Part shown: in pieces, positions 1-22,593 of the stretch
Layout: each line of letters starts with the position of its first letter
Numbering within the stretch: the stretch's first letter is position 1
Virus record (IMG/VR): IMGVR_UViG_3300030104_002237
Coordinates: 1 to 24,463 of that record
Direction: 5' to 3' (one strand)
DNA length: 24,463 nt
Source of the DNA: a virus
Notes under the pieces: generated by a model
What the model was told of the DNA's origin: nothing
The model's database searches: none
Seen by the model: only the letters and a program-made list of their open reading frames with translations
Program-made: the position numbers and the translations under genes

Positions 1-270
1 AAAAAACCTTTAGCAACAAATGTTCAGATGGATGGAGAGCATTACAAAAATAAAGCCATACAGCCGATTGAATATATCATCGCCAATAAACTTTCTTTCT
101 GCTTGGGTAATGTTGTTAAATATATAACCAGAGATAAGGTAAACAAAGTTCAGGATTTACTTAAAGCCAAGCACTACATTGATTTAGAATTAGAATTAAT
201 CCATAAACGTGATCCCGATGGTAACTGGTTAGACATTAACGAGGATGCAACCCATGAAGAATCTAAATAA
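1..270 (+). CDS. DUF3310 family small phage protein (5' partial)
   Basis: The protein carries the compact signature of DUF3310, a small family common in phage early regions and of unknown biochemical role: a GxHYK motif, IQPIEYI, then GNVVKYITR and DLLKAKHYIDL. The first ATG in the window is at 28, but the frame is open back to base 1. The residues before that ATG (NVQ) match the segment that normally precedes the G-x-HYK motif in this family (VQVGG-like). The true start is therefore probably upstream of the window and this entry is 5' partial. The gene overlaps the next one by 17 bases, suggesting coupling in a rightward early operon. The family call is firm; the function is unknown. Confidence 0.8.
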   Translation, partial: KKPLATNVQMDGEHYKNKAIQPIEYIIANKLSFCLGNVVKYITRDKVNKVQDLLKAKHYIDLELELIHKRDPDGNWLDINEDATHEESK

Positions 271-788: not shown

Positions 789-1865
789 TTATCCCGACTT
801 ACGCATCCAAAGTTTTTGAATGTAATCACCTACCGCTTGCGCGTTGCTCGATGAATCTTCCTCAAATATATGTGCGTAGCGTTGCGTTGATTGTAAATCT
901 GCATGGCCTAATAAGTTTCCGGTTTCCTCTAGCTTCGTTAAAGAACGTCTAGCATAACTCGCAAAGCTATGGCGCAAGTCATGTATTCTTACATCCGGGC
1001 AACCCGCACGTTTGCGTATTCCTTGCCACATCTTTGAAGGATCATTAATGCCAATGATGTACTTATCGGTTTGCTCTAATTTATTAATAATATTCATGGC
1101 TTGAGAAGATAAATAAATTACCCTAGCCTCACCATCCTTATCGGTTTTATGTTCCTCTAAGGTGATCTTGTTGCCTTGTAAATTAGACCATTTGGCTTTT
1201 GCCAGTTCACCTTTACGCGCACCAGTTAAAATACATAACCAAATAAAACTAACCGACCTCATCCATCGCCCATTTTCCTCTTGCGATTTTAAATTCAATT
1301 CACATACAACGGCATTGAGTTCTTGCTGCGTTAAATAGCGTTTGCGTTTTTCTTCTTTATTCTTCTTAACAAACTTGGCTGGATTAACTTCGATTAGTGA
1401 TAAGGCAATCGCATTATTAAAGGTAGCGCGTATTAAATCAATAATCCGGTTAGCCTGGTACTTATAACTCTTACTAACATTATCGTGAATACGCTTTATA
1501 TCACCTCGTTTTATTTCGCTTATCAGTTTATTGCCAAGCGGTTTTTGTAAATACTTTTTATATGTTGACTCAGCATAATTAATCCTCTTTACGCCTCGAT
1601 TTTCCATATCATCAACATACGCTTGCCAGATATCCGCAAACGTAGGTTGGCTTTTATTAGTAAATGGATCAATGCCTTGTACTGCCATACCAAGCATTTT
1701 CTTGGCTTTATTTCTAACAGCTACTATGGGCGCATCCAATGGCGCTATCTTCTTATCTCTAAAACTAGAATGACCATCGACCTTATAATGTAAGTAGTAA
1801 CCTTTCGCATGATCGTTGTATTTTCTTAAACCATTAACTTTTTTATCTATTGCGTACTTTGGCAT
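789..1865 (-). CDS. int: Tyrosine-family site-specific integrase
   Basis: This integrase should recombine phage attP with a bacterial tRNA gene. From the ATG at 1865 the protein has 358 residues, usual for P4/lambda-type tRNA integrases. The N-terminus (about 1-75) resembles the arm-binding DUF4102-like region, followed by a SAM-like core-binding domain (about 75-165) and the catalytic domain. All catalytic residues are visible: R217 in TGARKGEL, K240 in EEHKTDKDG, H295 and R298 in HDLRH, H321 in LLGHA and nucleophile Y330 in STQRYAH. An upstream in-frame ATG at 1910 would add 15 residues, but 1865 has a purine-rich ribosome site (GAGGAGAGAGG) just upstream. The gene starts about 130 bases from the att core and reads away from it, the usual int-attP arrangement. 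Confidence 0.95.
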   Translation of the reverse strand: MPKYAIDKKVNGLRKYNDHAKGYYLHYKVDGHSSFRDKKIAPLDAPIVAVRNKAKKMLGMAVQGIDPFTNKSQPTFADIWQAYVDDMENRGVKRINYAESTYKKYLQKPLGNKLISEIKRGDIKRIHDNVSKSYKYQANRIIDLIRATFNNAIALSLIEVNPAKFVKKNKEEKRKRYLTQQELNAVVCELNLKSQEENGRWMRSVSFIWLCILTGARKGELAKAKWSNLQGNKITLEEHKTDKDGEARVIYLSSQAMNIINKLEQTDKYIIGINDPSKMWQGIRKRAGCPDVRIHDLRHSFASYARRSLTKLEETGNLLGHADLQSTQRYAHIFEEDSSSNAQAVGDYIQKLWMRKSG

Positions 1866-1883
1866 TACCTCTCTCCTCATTCC

Positions 1884-2116
1884 GTACCTTGTTCGTACCT
1901 TGCAATTCATAGTAATAAGATGAATTGTAAGGTGTTATCGTGTATCAAAGAGTAATCCAGATTTGTTGGTTTTGCAAGCGAATCTAACTAAAAACGTGGT
2001 GGGTGTTGAGAGACTCGAACTCCCGGCCCTCTCGGTGTAAACCTTATAGTTTATGTATTAAATAATTGAAATATATGAATAAAAATAAGGGAATATAGCG
2101 CGTACCTTATAGGTAC
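1884..2116. repeat. GTACCTT repeats flanking the att core
   Basis: GTACCTT occurs at 1884-1890, 1895-1901 and 2102-2108. The first two are 11 bp apart and lie just upstream of the chosen int start; the third is within a small palindrome (GTACC-ttata-GGTAC, 2102-2116) that reaches into the end of the nuclease gene. ACCTTATAG also recurs at 2041-2049 and 2104-2112. Short repeats on both sides of a core are what arm-type integrase sites look like, but a 7-mer can recur by chance and a fourth copy is at 23286-23292. Confidence 0.35.
1997..2041 (-). other. attP: attP core: 3' part of a tRNA-Val(UAC)-like gene
   Basis: Read on the minus strand, this 45-bp stretch is the 3' portion of a tRNA: anticodon loop TTTACAC, 3' anticodon stem CGAGA, variable loop GGGCC, T-stem GGGAG/CTCTC around loop TTCGAGT, acceptor strand AACACCC, discriminator A and CCA. 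The loop places UAC in the anticodon, and the acceptor implies a GGGTGTT partner; both fit tRNA-Val. The sequence upstream of the loop does not supply the 5' anticodon stem, so the tRNA gene is incomplete. A 3' tRNA end beside an integrase gene is the classic phage attachment core that restores the tRNA after integration. The isotype is inferred. Confidence 0.88.
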
Positions 2117-2544
2117 TTTGCTTTCATTAATTCTAAGGCTTCTTTTAAACTGGCATGACTGTCCGTATTTCTTATTATTTCATCTTTAATATAGATCGCT
2201 GTTTTAGATGTACCTTTATTGTTAGTCACTTCATGGAACGGGTAAAATAAAACTTTATCGTATTCGGTACAGCAAAGCGCAAACAAATCTATCTGCTCTT
2301 TTGTAAAAAATCTTTCTTTGGTATGAGAGCCTCGCCTAATATCAAATTTCCATAAATTTTTTTCTGATTCGTGTCGATGTGATTTTGTTTTAACTTGAAC
2401 CTTGAGGAAGGTTTGATTGTAGTTAAATAAAAGATCAACTTCTGAATTTGGAGGCATAAACAAAACAGAATCACTTTGCATGGAGAGGATTGAAGCTGTG
2501 AAATATTCACCTGATCTGCCGAGCCTTTCCGTTGCTCTGTTCAT
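2107..2544 (-). CDS. PD-(D/E)XK-like nuclease
   Basis: The 145-aa protein has the layout of the small PD-(D/E)XK nucleases related to group I intron endonucleases and Holliday resolvases (PDDEXK_5-like): a helix with GEYFTA (E13), then SEVDLLF (D37), then the strand KVQVKTK with Q50 and K52 in place of the ExK motif. The spacing of E13, D37 and Q50-x-K52 fits a metal-dependent active site, and Q instead of E is known in this group. It lies between the virion genes and attP, 11 bases after the last ejection-protein gene, a position often used by accessory genes. Possible roles are a homing nuclease, a resolvase or a superinfection factor; the sequence does not decide. Confidence 0.6.
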   Translation of the reverse strand: MNRATERLGRSGEYFTASILSMQSDSVLFMPPNSEVDLLFNYNQTFLKVQVKTKSHRHESEKNLWKFDIRRGSHTKERFFTKEQIDLFALCCTEYDKVLFYPFHEVTNNKGTSKTAIYIKDEIIRNTDSHASLKEALELMKAKYL

Positions 2545-4873: not shown

Positions 4874-5914
4874 TTAATCTTCAAACTCAATTCTTTCAAA
4901 ATAGTCAGCAGTTACTGGGCTAAAATCTAAACCTTCTTCATTAATAGTATAACCTTGAAAAATTGGCTCTGTGGGCAAACCTAAATAACTATAAGATAAT
5001 GCTGTACCAGCCCTATTTTCTTTAAATCCATCTAGCATATGTTTTGTACCTTTTCTTGCTAAATTTAATATCTGAGATTTCATTTCTGGTGTCATACCCT
5101 CACCCTTACTTTTAGAGAGTTTTTCTTTTATATTACCTAATAAACCTTGAGCCTCTTGAAAAGACCTTACTTCACCCTCTTTAACAACCGAGCCATCCAA
5201 TCCTTTCATATAAAGAACTAAAGAAGAATAAGCAGCAGTTCCACCTTCTTGTTTCAAAGAATCTTCCAGTTTCTTAAAGGCAACAACCGCATTATTAGTT
5301 GGAGTCCATATTTTTTCTTGTACTTTTCTTTCGCTTAAAATATCTGCTCTCATATCTTCCATCGTTTGTGGTTGAGCTAATTTAAAGTATTCTAACCCCT
5401 TATCTGCATATCCTTCTGTTTGAAAAGCATCACCAATTGCCCTGTAAAATGATCTGTAAGAATCATAGTCATCTTTTTTTATGGATGAAGTTATTGCTCG
5501 AAATTCTGCTTCTTCTTTCTCTTTTCTCTGCCGTTCTAAATCACCTACTGCAAAATTTGCATACGCATTTGGATTACTTATAAATGATTCTCTAAGTTCT
5601 GTTGGAATATTTGGATTGTTTGCTATGCTTGATCTCAGTTTTTGCTCTCTAGCTTTAGCTTGCCTAGCTGCATCCATAGCCATAAAGTTTTGCTCTCTGG
5701 CAAGATAATTTTGACCAATATCTTTACCTTTAAAGGCATCACCTAAAGCAAATAATAAATTGGCTTTTTGTTGTCTTTCAGTCAACGCTCTTTGTTGTTC
5801 TGGAGTAAGTATGCCAGTTGGCTGTGCGTTCATATTGGCAAACGTATTACCAACATTACTTATACCCGTATTTACTTTACCGCCAAGCGTTCTTAATAAA
5901 TCTGCTATCGCCAT
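4874..5914 (-). CDS. Putative internal virion protein (346 aa)
   Basis: No specific family recognised. The protein is predicted to be mostly helical: a Gln/Arg-rich helix at about 40-105 (PEQQRALTERQQKANLLFAL and following), an NPNIPTELRESFISNPNAYANF linker-like stretch, then a charged helix ELERQRKEKEE-like region. Helical Gln/Ala-rich proteins in this place, between an S74-domain protein and a large Gly-rich protein, are usually minor virion or ejection proteins in P22- and T7-like phages. The start shares one base with the preceding stop (TAATG), suggesting coupled translation. Function is inferred only from context. Confidence 0.5.
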   Translation of the reverse strand: MAIADLLRTLGGKVNTGISNVGNTFANMNAQPTGILTPEQQRALTERQQKANLLFALGDAFKGKDIGQNYLAREQNFMAMDAARQAKAREQKLRSSIANNPNIPTELRESFISNPNAYANFAVGDLERQRKEKEEAEFRAITSSIKKDDYDSYRSFYRAIGDAFQTEGYADKGLEYFKLAQPQTMEDMRADILSERKVQEKIWTPTNNAVVAFKKLEDSLKQEGGTAAYSSLVLYMKGLDGSVVKEGEVRSFQEAQGLLGNIKEKLSKSKGEGMTPEMKSQILNLARKGTKHMLDGFKENRAGTALSYSYLGLPTEPIFQGYTINEEGLDFSPVTADYFERIEFED

Positions 5915-13551: not shown

Positions 13552-14487
13552 TTATGAAGTTGATAAGTCAGCAGCGATTCCGTGAGCCTTCTCATTTGAT
13601 ACTTCCAATCCAAATTCAACGACTAACATTTTCGTAATTGCATCACCAATCGTTGCGATATCAATAGTTTCAAAATCTCTCATGAAACAAGTTTTCGCAA
13701 AGTTAGGATCAACAAATAAAGCTGATCTTGAACGACTGAAATTTGAAGGAACTACTTTAAGTTCTCCAAAGTCACCCGCATAGATAGCTACTGATGCTTC
13801 AACTGTGTTTGCATCTACTGTTTGAGTCACAGAAGTTCTGCCACTAAAACCAGATACAACACCTTTAACGTGTGGGCCAACGATTAACATTGAAGGCTCA
13901 CCACCATTTGCAAAGCAGAGTTGTTGTACTGCTTTCAAGATGGTTTCAGTAAACGCACGTTGTGTACCATCAGTAGGTGCAGCACCATTACCAGCGCCCG
14001 CTCCGTTAGTACCACGCGATACGTTTGTTTCTGTCCACGTTTCAAATCCACCAGTTTGACGAACAGTAGCAGCAGCACCGGCATTTTTAGCAACTTTAGA
14101 GCATAAGGCCGTTTCCATATCTCTCTTTAAGGCCTTAGCCATAACAGCTAGTTGATGCGCCATTTCTGATTTTTTTCCCGCTGCATCAGAAGCGTTTTGC
14201 GTACCAGTTACAGTTGCATCACGGCTGCTGATTTGACAGAAGTTTACTTCTCTAACTGTTGCAGTAGAAGCAGAACGAGAAAGTTCAAAACCTTCTAATT
14301 GTCCTGTTCCAGATGCAGTTGGTAGAGCTTCGGTTTGCCAGTCAAACTGGACATTTCTTACATTAGTTTTGCCAATAGAACTCATAAATGGCGTACTCAT
14401 TGGAGATATGTTGTAGATTATGTCAGACAACTGTTCTCTATCAGAAGTAGCAGTATATGTGTCAAAGGCGTTTGTTACTTTAGCCAT
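13552..14487 (-). CDS. Major capsid protein, SU10-like (DUF5309)
   Basis: The 311-aa protein shows the DUF5309/SU10 capsid pattern: NAFDTYTATSDREQLSDIIY, then SPMSTPFMSSIGK near residues 29-41, FDWQTEALP, QISSRDATVTGTQ, MAVMAKALKRDMETAL-type helix and SMLIVGPHVKGVVSGF. Proteins of this family fold like HK97 and form the icosahedral shell. It follows the scaffold gene by 13 bases, and a strong terminator follows it, both usual for a highly expressed shell protein. No N-terminal delta domain is present; scaffolding is supplied by the separate upstream gene. Confidence 0.85.
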   Translation of the reverse strand: MAKVTNAFDTYTATSDREQLSDIIYNISPMSTPFMSSIGKTNVRNVQFDWQTEALPTASGTGQLEGFELSRSASTATVREVNFCQISSRDATVTGTQNASDAAGKKSEMAHQLAVMAKALKRDMETALCSKVAKNAGAAATVRQTGGFETWTETNVSRGTNGAGAGNGAAPTDGTQRAFTETILKAVQQLCFANGGEPSMLIVGPHVKGVVSGFSGRTSVTQTVDANTVEASVAIYAGDFGELKVVPSNFSRSRSALFVDPNFAKTCFMRDFETIDIATIGDAITKMLVVEFGLEVSNEKAHGIAADLSTS

Positions 14488-18703: not shown

Positions 18704-18886
18704 TTAATGAATCCTATTTTCTTCTACATTCAAAATTTCTGAATCGCGGTCAATTCTACCCATAAACATAAACATCATTGTATTCATTGCTTCTTCTTGC
18801 GAATCAGCCGGAATATCTGTTCCTGTAAATATTTCATCACCTTCCACAACTTCTATTGTGTAAAGTTTAGTTTGTTTGCCTTCCAT
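18704..18886 (-). CDS. Small acidic late protein (60 aa)
   Basis: Family not recognised. It is acidic, with a possible beta strand (KLYTIEVVEGDEIFTG) followed by a helix (DSQEEAMNTMMFMFMGRI) containing several Met residues. AAGGA lies about ten bases before the ATG, and the start lies inside the end of the portal gene (20-base overlap). The acidic nature contrasts with the very basic proteins that follow, which could suggest a binding partner; that is inference. Confidence 0.55.
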   Translation of the reverse strand: MEGKQTKLYTIEVVEGDEIFTGTDIPADSQEEAMNTMMFMFMGRIDRDSEILNVEENRIH

Positions 18887-21002
18887 TGTTAAATAATCCT
18901 TGCGACTGAGTTTTTGCTATTTGTCGTAGCGTTTCTCTGTCACGTTCCATTAGCGCATTAATTTCTGCCACATTAATTTGCGCACCATATTTAGCGTTAA
19001 GTTCAGCAGCTTTTAATCTAATGTTAGCTTCTGCTTTATCTCTATCTCTATCGTCATCCATTATTATTTTCATGCGATCTGTTTCAGCATCAATCACCGC
19101 TTTTTGCGATTGTACTTGTGCTTTTTGTATTTCTGCTTGAGCTAACAATTCTGCTGGATCAGGTTTTTGCTGTTCTGGTTGCGGAGGCATTGGCGGTATT
19201 TGTGTGTTAATAAACGCTTGTGCATCCTTAAACCCAGCCATTTCAATGATTTTTGTTAATGTGTTCGAGTATTGCTGTAAGCTAACCAATGGATTGTTCG
19301 GCCCCATTGTTTGTAGTATTTGCTCTTGTTTATTAGATAGTTGAGCCAGTATGCCCGCTTTTTCTTCATCACTTGATTTACTGATAGATACATTAACTAC
19401 CATATCTTTATCGGCATCCCAATAACGCGGATCAACTGTTATAAACTCATTGTTCAAACGATATACTGATTGTGCATCCTGATGTTTAATGACTAAACCA
19501 TTAACCAATTTAAACAGTTGTTGCATCCCACCTTCTGCAAAATGACGGCAAATTAATTCTATTCGACCTTGCGCACCTGACATAGTAGCTGCTACCGCAG
19601 ACTTGGTAGAGGATTGAAGTGCATCAGCGTTCAAACCAGCCGATGCTTTAGAAACTCCAGTCCTATTTTCTTTGGCATCATCCAAATATCCCAACACGGG
19701 GAACGCTTCTTTACCAACAAACGGCACGGCAAAAGGCTGTACCATACCAGGCGCTCTCATTCTAATCGGTTGACCAATATCAGTATTCAGTACGTCATCA
19801 ATATTAACTTGTCCTTCCACGACACCCATTCTTGGGAAAATGGCATGACCAAGTGAATCTAACGTATCACGCATAATTTGTGATTTAGCTGCTTGTATTG
19901 GTTTTAAGTAATCTGCGGGGCAACTGCCAATAGAGGTATGTGGTTCTGGATCAGGACAGAACATAACAATCGGTAAGTCATCCCATGCTTCACAATTTAT
20001 AATATTTACGCCATTACCAATGGTGCAAACTCTGACTCTTTCAGCTATGCCGTCATCGTCTAAGTCATAAAAACAGTAATGCTCGATATACAATACTTCT
20101 TTGCCGTATTCACCACTAGCACTAGGGTACATATTATCGGCAACGGGGTTTCTAGCTTCACGTTCCGTATAAGTATCAGCATCAAAAGCCGATCCTGAAC
20201 CCGCGTATTCTTCTATTTCATCTCGGTCATAACCCATAGCGACCAAATCAGAAACACTTTTAACCATGCGGTGTGCTATGTAAGGAGATGATTCAAAACT
20301 TCTTGCATCTCTTGAGATTAACACTTCTTCTGGCGGTACAGCTTCGATGCAGACTTGGTTTTTATTTTTTACGCGCCTGATGGTTAAGTCATAACTCGCG
20401 GGTGACTCTTGAGTTATTTCTTCGCCAGTTTCAGGGTTCATCATGGTCATAGACTCCATCTTCACCGCTTCTTTTACAACTTCCACATCGGGATCAAGGA
20501 TTAATGCTTGATAAGAGGCGGGATCAATGTCGGTATATTCATGCGTAGTCGCACTCATTGAGTCATCCCAAAACGCCTTAACAAATCCTGACTTTCTTAC
20601 GAGCGCATCTTTAAACGCATCGTAAAGAATTTTAAAACCGGGGTTCTTTTGTTGAACAATGTAATTAATATAATTGGTTTGTTGTTCGGCAACTGTAATA
20701 TCTTCTGGGCCAGTCGGTAAAAACTCGACTACTTTTTTAGTACCAAAGAAAGTACGCATGATAGACGGCAACATAAATAAAATACTATCTCGAACATCAG
20801 TCGATACAAACTCTGACTGTAAATCACTTGTACCATCTGGTTCGCTACCAAGATAGTATTCGGTGCTTTCTGCGCGTTCTTGACCGATTTGCCCGATGTA
20901 ATCCTCTGCATCGTTCAATTCTGATTTAAGAATACCTTGTAAATTATCGTAATGTTTTTCTTTTGACTCTTTGTGTTGCTTATCTTTTTTATCGTATTTC
21001 AT
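18867..21002 (-). CDS. Portal protein, P22-like
   Basis: A 711-aa protein, in the length range of P22 portal (about 725 aa). The N-terminal part has a helical segment with EDYIGQIGQERAESTEYYLG, then FVSTDVRDSILFMLPSIMRTFFG, the common start of the portal wing. SYDLTIRRVKNK, VPPEEVLISRDA and KSQIMRDTLDSLG are also typical. From about residue 600 the sequence becomes Gln/Ala/Asp-rich and helical (KAQVQSQKAVIDAETDRMK and later), matching the long helical barrel of P22 portals. The protein should form the dodecameric DNA gate, binding terminase outside and the adaptor at the tail. It follows the terminase gene by three bases. Confidence 0.88.
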   Translation of the reverse strand: MKYDKKDKQHKESKEKHYDNLQGILKSELNDAEDYIGQIGQERAESTEYYLGSEPDGTSDLQSEFVSTDVRDSILFMLPSIMRTFFGTKKVVEFLPTGPEDITVAEQQTNYINYIVQQKNPGFKILYDAFKDALVRKSGFVKAFWDDSMSATTHEYTDIDPASYQALILDPDVEVVKEAVKMESMTMMNPETGEEITQESPASYDLTIRRVKNKNQVCIEAVPPEEVLISRDARSFESSPYIAHRMVKSVSDLVAMGYDRDEIEEYAGSGSAFDADTYTEREARNPVADNMYPSASGEYGKEVLYIEHYCFYDLDDDGIAERVRVCTIGNGVNIINCEAWDDLPIVMFCPDPEPHTSIGSCPADYLKPIQAAKSQIMRDTLDSLGHAIFPRMGVVEGQVNIDDVLNTDIGQPIRMRAPGMVQPFAVPFVGKEAFPVLGYLDDAKENRTGVSKASAGLNADALQSSTKSAVAATMSGAQGRIELICRHFAEGGMQQLFKLVNGLVIKHQDAQSVYRLNNEFITVDPRYWDADKDMVVNVSISKSSDEEKAGILAQLSNKQEQILQTMGPNNPLVSLQQYSNTLTKIIEMAGFKDAQAFINTQIPPMPPQPEQQKPDPAELLAQAEIQKAQVQSQKAVIDAETDRMKIIMDDDRDRDKAEANIRLKAAELNAKYGAQINVAEINALMERDRETLRQIAKTQSQGLFNNGRQTN

Positions 21003-21005
21003 AAA

Positions 21006-22538
21006 TTACCCAACTCTTAAAATTCTTGACTGTAATGGTTTCTTGAAATTATACCCCATAAATGATTGACTTCCACTAAATGAAGCTGCAGCACTCGCCA
21101 TAGTCAATGCAAGTGCATCTGCTCTATCGGGTGATTTGATACCTCGTTTTTTCATTTCTTCTTTTGACTCAAGTTTTATTTTTCCGGTCGAGGTATATTT
21201 ATAAATTGGCGCAGCCAGTTCTGCCACCAGTTCATCGTCATTTGGTAAGCGACAATCTCTTTGTGCTAACCAATCTTTTATTGCAAACCAAAGTTCGGCT
21301 CGTAAGTTTAAAAAATTCTTCTTGGTAGATGGGGCTTCTGCCACATTAACACCTCTTACTGGTAAATTCTGTTCTGCTAATCTGTCAACAACCCCGCTAC
21401 CCAGTCCAATAACATCCACCAACACTTCTTGGGGCTTAGTCATCATCGTTTCATTATCATACTTGTTTTTTACCGCCCCGCAAAGTTGCATTAAATCCAT
21501 AGAATTAAAAGTTTTAATTTCAAGTACAGTATTCCCTTGTCTAACGCATAGCGCAGAATTATCTCCACCGAAACGCGCTACATCTAAACCCCATACAATT
21601 GGTGCGGAAGCACTTATTGATACATCTCGATCTACGGCTGCGCGAACTAAATCCATTGGTATAACTGTATCGTCATCCGCACTTGGAAATTCACCCAATA
21701 CTTCTACCCTGGCAACAGTAGAATTTTCTCCGTATTGCTCAAGCATGGTTTGAAAGAGTTTTTGATCCGTACCTTCCACAGTCCGGCTGTCTATTTGCTC
21801 GTTATGCCAGTATTTGCGCTTGGAGTGAAAGCTATCGTAGAACGGGCCGGTGTTTCTGCGAGGGTTGGAGAAGGTAAACCAATACCGATGCGCGGTAGGT
21901 TCGGAGAAAAATCCCTCTGATACGGAATAAATAGGTGCGGGAATACCTGATGCTTCATCCATGATTAAACAAACACCATAAGATGAGTGAATACCAGCGA
22001 AAGCATCTGGGTTTTCTTCTGACCAAAGTTGGGCTTGCGCATAGTAGTAACCCGTATCTATTTGTAAATCTCTGATAAGGGCTTCTTCAAACCATGGCGC
22101 TGGTTTAACTGTGGTAGCGGTTTTATTAAACCAATGTGAGTTAATGGCAAGCGTAATCCATTTACCGAGTTCAGCCCAAGTTCTTGAGCGTAACTGCTGT
22201 TCGGTGTTAGCGGTAACAATAATGGTTGCACCAAGCCGGGTTGAGAGCATCCAAAGTATTAACCAAGCAACTAAAGCTGATTTGCCGATACCACGACCGG
22301 AGGCGACCGCTAGTCTAAACATCTCTGGTAAGTCTATGGTCTGGTTGCGTTGGATGTGAATTGCAATATCTCGCAAAATTTTTTCTTGCCACTTTCTTGG
22401 GCCAGTAAAATCTTCAAGGGGGGTGTTCTTTTGCCCCCAAGGGAAGGCGAACTTAACAAAGTTTAATGGATCGTCTTTAATATTGAGTGACCAAAGCTCG
22501 GTCATCAGTTGTTTTTCTTGCTCTGCCCCGTATTTCAT
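21006..22538 (-). CDS. terL: Terminase large subunit
   Basis: The ATPase-nuclease that packages phage DNA. In the 528-codon frame from 22592, Walker A is ASGRGIGKS (97-105), Walker B is VCLIMDE (207-213) and the coupling motif is FTFSNP (239-244). The nuclease domain has D337 (GLDVARFGGD), D393 (LVDVIGLGSG) and D489/D492 (SPDRADAL). I chose the ATG at 22538 because the 18 residues before it do not look like the family and are encoded by an inverted repeat; proteins of this type usually begin shortly before ELWSLNIKDDPLNFVKFAFPWG. Neither start has a clear ribosome site, so the longer 22592 start remains possible. Confidence 0.92.
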   Translation of the reverse strand: MKYGAEQEKQLMTELWSLNIKDDPLNFVKFAFPWGQKNTPLEDFTGPRKWQEKILRDIAIHIQRNQTIDLPEMFRLAVASGRGIGKSALVAWLILWMLSTRLGATIIVTANTEQQLRSRTWAELGKWITLAINSHWFNKTATTVKPAPWFEEALIRDLQIDTGYYYAQAQLWSEENPDAFAGIHSSYGVCLIMDEASGIPAPIYSVSEGFFSEPTAHRYWFTFSNPRRNTGPFYDSFHSKRKYWHNEQIDSRTVEGTDQKLFQTMLEQYGENSTVARVEVLGEFPSADDDTVIPMDLVRAAVDRDVSISASAPIVWGLDVARFGGDNSALCVRQGNTVLEIKTFNSMDLMQLCGAVKNKYDNETMMTKPQEVLVDVIGLGSGVVDRLAEQNLPVRGVNVAEAPSTKKNFLNLRAELWFAIKDWLAQRDCRLPNDDELVAELAAPIYKYTSTGKIKLESKEEMKKRGIKSPDRADALALTMASAAASFSGSQSFMGYNFKKPLQSRILRVG

Positions 22539-22549
22539 AGCGATTAAAA

Positions 22550-22593
22550 GATGCGCCCGTCTACGGGAGAGAGGATATAAAGACGAGCGCATC
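22550..22593 (-). promoter_or_regulatory. Inverted repeat in the terL leader
   Basis: Arms GATGCGCCCGTC (22550-22561) and GACGAGCGCATC (22582-22593) pair at 11 of 12 positions, with the remaining one a mismatch in DNA, and are 20 bases apart. In leftward RNA the second arm is followed by UUUUAAUCG and then, seven bases on, the terL ATG at 22538. It could act as an attenuator, hide the alternative ATG at 22592, or be a packaging recognition structure. Function is inferred. Confidence 0.45.

Follow-up and report, generated by a model that had tools for sequence, protein, structure and literature searches.

A tRNA-Val(UAC) 3' half beside a tyrosine integrase: probable attachment site and likely host order of a temperate SU10-like podovirus

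Why does a piece of viral DNA carry half of a bacterial tRNA gene next to an integrase, and to which bacterium does this half gene point? The window, i.e. the whole stretch of DNA analysed here, is the entire IMG/VR record of 24,463 bp; it is without end repeats and is probably a piece of a larger phage. On its minus strand, positions 1997-2041 read TTTACACCGAGAGGGCCGGGAGTTCGAGTCTCTCAACACCCACCA, which is the 3' half of tRNA-Val(UAC) from the anticodon loop to CCA. It is made up of the anticodon loop TTTACAC, the 3' strand of the anticodon stem CGAGA, the variable loop, a 5/5 T-stem, the T-loop TTCGAGT, the acceptor strand AACACCC and ACCA, so that the tRNA geometry proposed in a preliminary description of this DNA is borne out, with the T-arm and the acceptor 3' strand intact. 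This 45-mer is very probably the intact attP core of a temperate SU10-like podovirus, and the adjacent integrase would recombine it with the tRNA-Val(UAC) gene of HIMB59/AEGEAN-169 bacteria.

The 5' half of the tRNA is missing, as had been described, and AT-rich phage DNA takes its place up to a PD-(D/E)XK nuclease gene. No whole tRNA was detected in the window by ARAGORN or Rfam, as expected since the fragment is half a gene. On comparison with the host tRNA-Val gene, which starts with GGGTGTTTAGCTCAG and ends in the fragment, identity extends from one base before the anticodon loop (2042) to CCA, i.e. over 46 positions with a single mismatch (2026); the target named earlier, a tRNA with anticodon UAC and acceptor GGGTGTT/AACACCC, is thus the one observed. 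When the 31-nt 5' half of the host tRNA-Val and the phage 45-mer were joined in silico, a canonical tRNA-Val(tac) was recognised by ARAGORN, and none was recognised in the phage region alone. The features of the core are as follows.

1997..2041, minus strand: assigned attP core, tRNA-Val(UAC) 3' half (44/45 identity to tRNA-Val(TAC) genes; full tRNA regenerated with the host 5' half)
2042..2042, minus strand: one extra host-identical base, the left limit of the identity block (comparison with the host tRNA gene)
2026..2026, minus strand: sole core position, in the variable loop, that differs from the 19 matching host genes and phage L002 (C in the window, T there; sequence comparison)

The genes on both sides of the fragment are phage-like, in agreement with the preliminary description, and this holds within the window as well as further out in two related contigs, L002 and L003. 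The tyrosine integrase that was said to adjoin the fragment is indeed complete (PF00589 and PHROG 1), and its alignment shows the conserved R, HxxR, H and Y motifs; its start could be refined, probably to codon 16 of the 373-aa ORF (position 1865, 358 aa), because the integrases of relatives start there. Both the major capsid and the portal families of the SU10 type are present, as in a predicted SU10-type podovirus. The relevant genes are listed below.

28..270, plus strand: DUF3310 / nucleotide-kinase-type early phage gene (PF11753)
789..1910, minus strand: tyrosine integrase (Pfam PF00589, E=5.6e-15; PHROG 1, integrase)
2107..2544, minus strand: PD-(D/E)XK nuclease-like protein on the P-arm side of attP (PF11645; syntenic in L002, L003 and L004, with a similar 137-aa ORF there in L213)
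13552..14487, minus strand: SU10-type major capsid protein (PF17236, E=3e-84)
18867..21002, minus strand: SU10-type portal protein (PF23899, E=1.5e-192)
21006..22592, minus strand: terminase large subunit (PHROG 2, E=3.6e-48)

Members of the same integrase family were identified in other viral contigs, at 99% identity in L002, 54% in L003/L004 (full alignment) and 56% in L213/L215. L002, an independent 34-kb phage contig, has this tRNA fragment too, within the same flanks, and its 45-mer agrees with the host gene throughout (45/45). At the place of the window's Val half, L003/L004 carry the 3' half of tRNA-Pro(UGG) and L213 that of the initiator tRNA-Met(CAT). L002, L003 and L004 all have the nuclease, the tRNA half, the integrase and DUF3310 in this order, and L213 has a similar one; beyond the integrase, an exonuclease and Sak4 are found in L002 and L003, RusA and SSB in L002 and a primase in L003. 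Because of this conserved order and of the phage genes beyond the integrase in L002 and L003, positions 1997-2041 are read from sequence as an attP core lying within the phage genome, not as attL or attR. A displaced attR, too, would show up as a solitary tRNA fragment next to an integrase, and the fragment might on that account mark one end of a prophage (attL or attR) or be what is left of a host tRNA gene, one of its sides then being host DNA. This is highly improbable, as L002, L003/L004 and L213 have homologous sequence on both sides of the core despite the difference in tRNA, kilobases of phage genes lie on either side, and the host flank of the real gene, with tRNA-Asp downstream, is absent. 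The earlier view that the locus is neither a host tRNA gene nor a host-prophage junction is accordingly supported by the recurrence of the same fragment flanks in an independent phage contig and of other tRNA halves in relatives. Its further claim, that the attP marks the unintegrated form, holds for the attP and for the presence of a non-integrated form, although an intact attP by itself is also compatible with tandem copies.

When 947 kb of DNA of related phages was scanned for the geometry of tRNA 3' halves, it yielded 0, and one was present beside every complete integrase site of the window's integrase family; this outcome, together with the 44/45 match in 19 marine species, argues that the fragment is not a chance resemblance. 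A scan near the integrases of other integrase-bearing SU10-like contigs detected no CCA-ending tRNA halves. A role apart from integration, be it as a transcribed tRNA fragment, as a regulatory decoy or otherwise, has nothing direct in its favour and appears very remote, since the adjacency to int, the boundaries of the fragment (anticodon loop and CCA), the exchange of tRNAs on a fixed scaffold and the arm-like repeats described below all fit an attP.

Same-direction repeats of the form AAGG[T/G]AC, 11 bp apart, flank all three cores. Their offsets from the core start are -78/-67 and +140/+151 in the window and L002, -77/-66 and +140 in L003/L004, and -79/-68 and +140/+151 in L213, and with the integrase start placed at codon 16 the repeats at +140/+151 lie just upstream of int. 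A pair with 11-bp spacing occurred in at most 1 of 5,000 shuffles per region, a figure that supports the sites and is to be read with the motif having been picked after inspection and the regions being homologous. Outside the repeats, the three attP regions (Val, Pro and fMet) are diverged yet alignable. The repeats are probably arm-type sites of the integrase, and their positions in the window are given here.

2113..2119, minus strand: putative P-arm arm-type site AAAGTAC, at -78 from the core start (position common to L002, L003/L004 and L213 within 1 bp)
2101..2108, minus strand: putative P-arm arm-type site AAGGTACG, at -67 from the core start (repeat comparison)
1894..1901, minus strand: putative P'-arm arm-type site AAGGTACG, at +140 (found at this exact offset in six contigs, which between them have three tRNA targets)
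1883..1890, minus strand: putative P'-arm arm-type site AAGGTACG, at +151 (repeat comparison)

Window positions 2102-2116 also form a palindrome, GTACCTTATAGGTAC, which overlaps the P-arm repeats; with the T-rich stretch that comes after it, it is terminator-like on the plus strand. A search for an int promoter between the core and int gave no consensus match.

For the host assignment, a relaxed pattern of the 45-mer was scanned over one genome per species in 84,980 species and detected 20 loci. Nineteen of these belong to uncultured bacteria, mostly titled marine Alphaproteobacteria, and match at 44/45, the difference being window position 2026; the twentieth, from Cohaesibacter, which lies outside the order considered below, matches at 43/45. 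All loci but one (19 of 20) are recognised by ARAGORN as a complete tRNA-Val(tac), the exception (L021) being on a contig that starts one base inside the gene. The check suggested in the preliminary description, a search for genomes with the exact 45-mer, was thus answered in part: the window's exact variant is present in no genome searched, and a 44/45 match is present in 19 species. Exact searches with the 45-mer in viral contigs and with a 41-mer in genome contigs likewise gave no match because of the one-base difference. One genome of the order (G061) has the same C as window position 2026, but its T-loop differs.

The order to which the first matching genome (G001) belongs was represented by 162 genomes, one per species and often single-cell or metagenome assemblies. 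The tRNA-Val 45-mer is present with up to 3 differences in 83 of them, and the L002 version is exact in 19. Pro(UGG) and fMet(CAT) halves of the sister phages are also exact copies of genes in this order: 81 of the 162 genomes have the L003/L004 Pro 45-mer without any difference, and the fMet 45-mer of L213 occurs with up to 3 differences in 115, many of them exact and including genomes without the Val and Pro 45-mers. Among 385 genomes drawn class-wide, the Pro 45-mer was detected in 2, both members of the order, and was absent from every genome of this sample outside it. Three different tRNA targets among the sister phages therefore indicate one order. Of these, the fMet target gives the weakest match, as its 45-mer is common in viral contigs; the initiator-tRNA 45-mer was seen in at least 120 viral contig stretches (L241-L320) and says less on the host than the Val and Pro fragments.

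The name of this order rests on the names of metagenome-assembled genomes and on literature. HIMB59/AEGEAN-169 (SAR11 subclade V) is widespread in surface oceans and has few cultures. The genomes of the order split into two groups by tRNA sequence, and the matching genomes include MarineAlpha5 bins, which have been placed with HIMB59 (PMC8879329). The HIMB59 order is described as having two families (PMC10734472), and AEGEAN-169 and HIMB59 are one group (PMC10308909). Since MarineAlpha5 bins match and a two-family order fits the two tRNA-sequence groups, we infer that the order is HIMB59/AEGEAN-169.

It may be argued that the attP is genuine and that the host is another marine bacterium with the same tRNA-Val(UAC) 3' half, the match to the HIMB59 order reflecting tRNA conservation. 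Users of the published method do warn that conserved tRNA genes may indicate broad ranks only (PMC3861242), Cohaesibacter reaches 43/45, and the window's exact sequence is in no genome searched. However, the relaxed pattern has only 20 loci in 84,980 species, 19 of them in marine alphaproteobacteria, which agrees with the 19 genomes of one order that carry the exact L002 variant, and the Pro and fMet halves of the sister phages indicate the same order, Pro being absent outside it in the class sample. Another host is hence improbable, though less so than the readings of the fragment as a prophage end or as a part without a role in integration. With HIMB59/AEGEAN-169 as the preferred host, the attP provides a specific phage-host link between an uncultured phage lineage and this group, which appears to be new; no described phage of HIMB59/AEGEAN-169 was found in the literature searched, a search that was not exhaustive. 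It also suggests that lysogeny is possible in these bacteria.

Taken with the sister contigs, the data favour, with reasonable but not high confidence, a temperate SU10-like lineage that infects HIMB59/AEGEAN-169 and has repeatedly changed its target among tRNA-Val, tRNA-Pro and initiator tRNA-Met by replacement of the attP core, the arm-site scaffold and the gene order staying fixed within ~1 bp. While attachment sites in tRNA genes and host assignment by attP-tRNA identity are known, the likely host of an uncultured SU10-like lineage and the evidence for tRNA-target swaps on a kept attP scaffold are new. The comparison of the three targets offers a natural series for how tyrosine integrases change their tRNA target.

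In the proposed course of integration, the tyrosine integrase would recombine attP with the host tRNA-Val(UAC) gene, and strand exchange is likely to take place in the anticodon loop because the 46-bp identity starts at its 5' edge. The host 5' half and the phage-borne 3' half would restore the tRNA gene, with int then reading away from it, and the displaced host 3' half would end up beside the phage nuclease gene, at the opposite end of the integrated phage. The predicted attL junction is 5'-GGTAGAGCATCTCG / TTTACAC...CACCA / CGTTTTTAGTTAG, the slashes marking its joints. In the host genomes tRNA-Asp usually follows directly after tRNA-Val, and an insertion would therefore separate the two.

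The preliminary description had also suggested looking for prophages with this integrase beside tRNA-Val, and here the outcome was negative: in the 162 genomes of the order, the portal as query gave no match (this search was run without a positive control), the best relatives of the integrase are only ~30% identical, and no integrase motif was detected beside the host tRNA-Val genes examined. The missing prophage counts weakly against integration in the order, since there is one genome per species and the assemblies are often from single cells or metagenomes. In four genomes of the order, genuine insertions lie between the tRNA and a second copy of the Pro 45-mer, which bounds them, and tRNA integration at the tRNA-Pro site thus does occur in these bacteria.

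Several further observations concern these tRNA sites. The islands between tRNA-Pro and the second 45-mer in genomes G083, G086, G093 and G009 (L205, L206, L207 and L208, respectively) are without an evident integrase; the one in L205 is a 6.2-kb type I restriction-modification-like set, and those in L206-L208 are of 1.2-1.7 kb. The resemblance of their far flanks to the flanks of viral contigs suggests that they are mobilised in trans by phage integrases. The tRNA-Pro(UGG) 45-mer of L003/L004 was observed in 28 viral contigs (L177-L204) with several kinds of flanks and at least three integrase families, which points to a shared integration hotspot. Two element types meet at the tRNA-Pro 45-mer of L189 (~5041-5085), one contributing the upstream flank and the other the downstream flank, which is what tandem or hybrid elements would be expected to give. 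In L008 (180-2367), the tRNA-Asp beside tRNA-Val is split by a ~2-kb island with an apparent integrase C-terminal remnant and an intact tRNA-Asp at the far end. In L007, the last bases of contig PTKX01000024.1 are the CCA of tRNA-Val; the assembly could have broken there because occupied and empty sites were mixed.

With respect to known systems, the window's phage shares its portal and capsid families with SU10-type podoviruses and relatives such as Sinorhizobium phiM5, Pelagibacter HTVC106P and Methylophilales Venkman, to which its portal is 33-40% identical; the best identity of the portal, 44%, is to uncultured phages. No close isolate was found in the phage collection, and similarity to known phages at the DNA level is confined to a 2% stretch shared with the pelagiphages HTVC201P and HTVC304P. 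The integrase is ~28% identical or less to annotated phage integrases among the matches listed. In the anticodon-loop class of tRNA-integrating tyrosine integrases, the identity block runs from the anticodon loop to the 3' end and the phage-supplied 3' half restores the gene; the window's phage is alike in its identity block and in the 3' half that it supplies. Identity between attP and tRNA, with tRNA fragments of ~36-46 bp and exact matches of 42-46 bp, has already been used to predict hosts of marine phages (Mizuno 2013, PMC3861242), as in the 46-bp tRNA-Leu match of an HTVC019P-like pelagiphage and the 43-bp tRNA-Val match of Ca. Actinomarina. The phages of Mizuno et al. 2013 (PMC3861242) resemble the present one in having an integrase beside a tRNA fragment that matches a host tRNA, whereas the window's phage differs in its SU10-type head genes, in its likely host order, HIMB59/AEGEAN-169, and in the several tRNA targets found within one integrase lineage.
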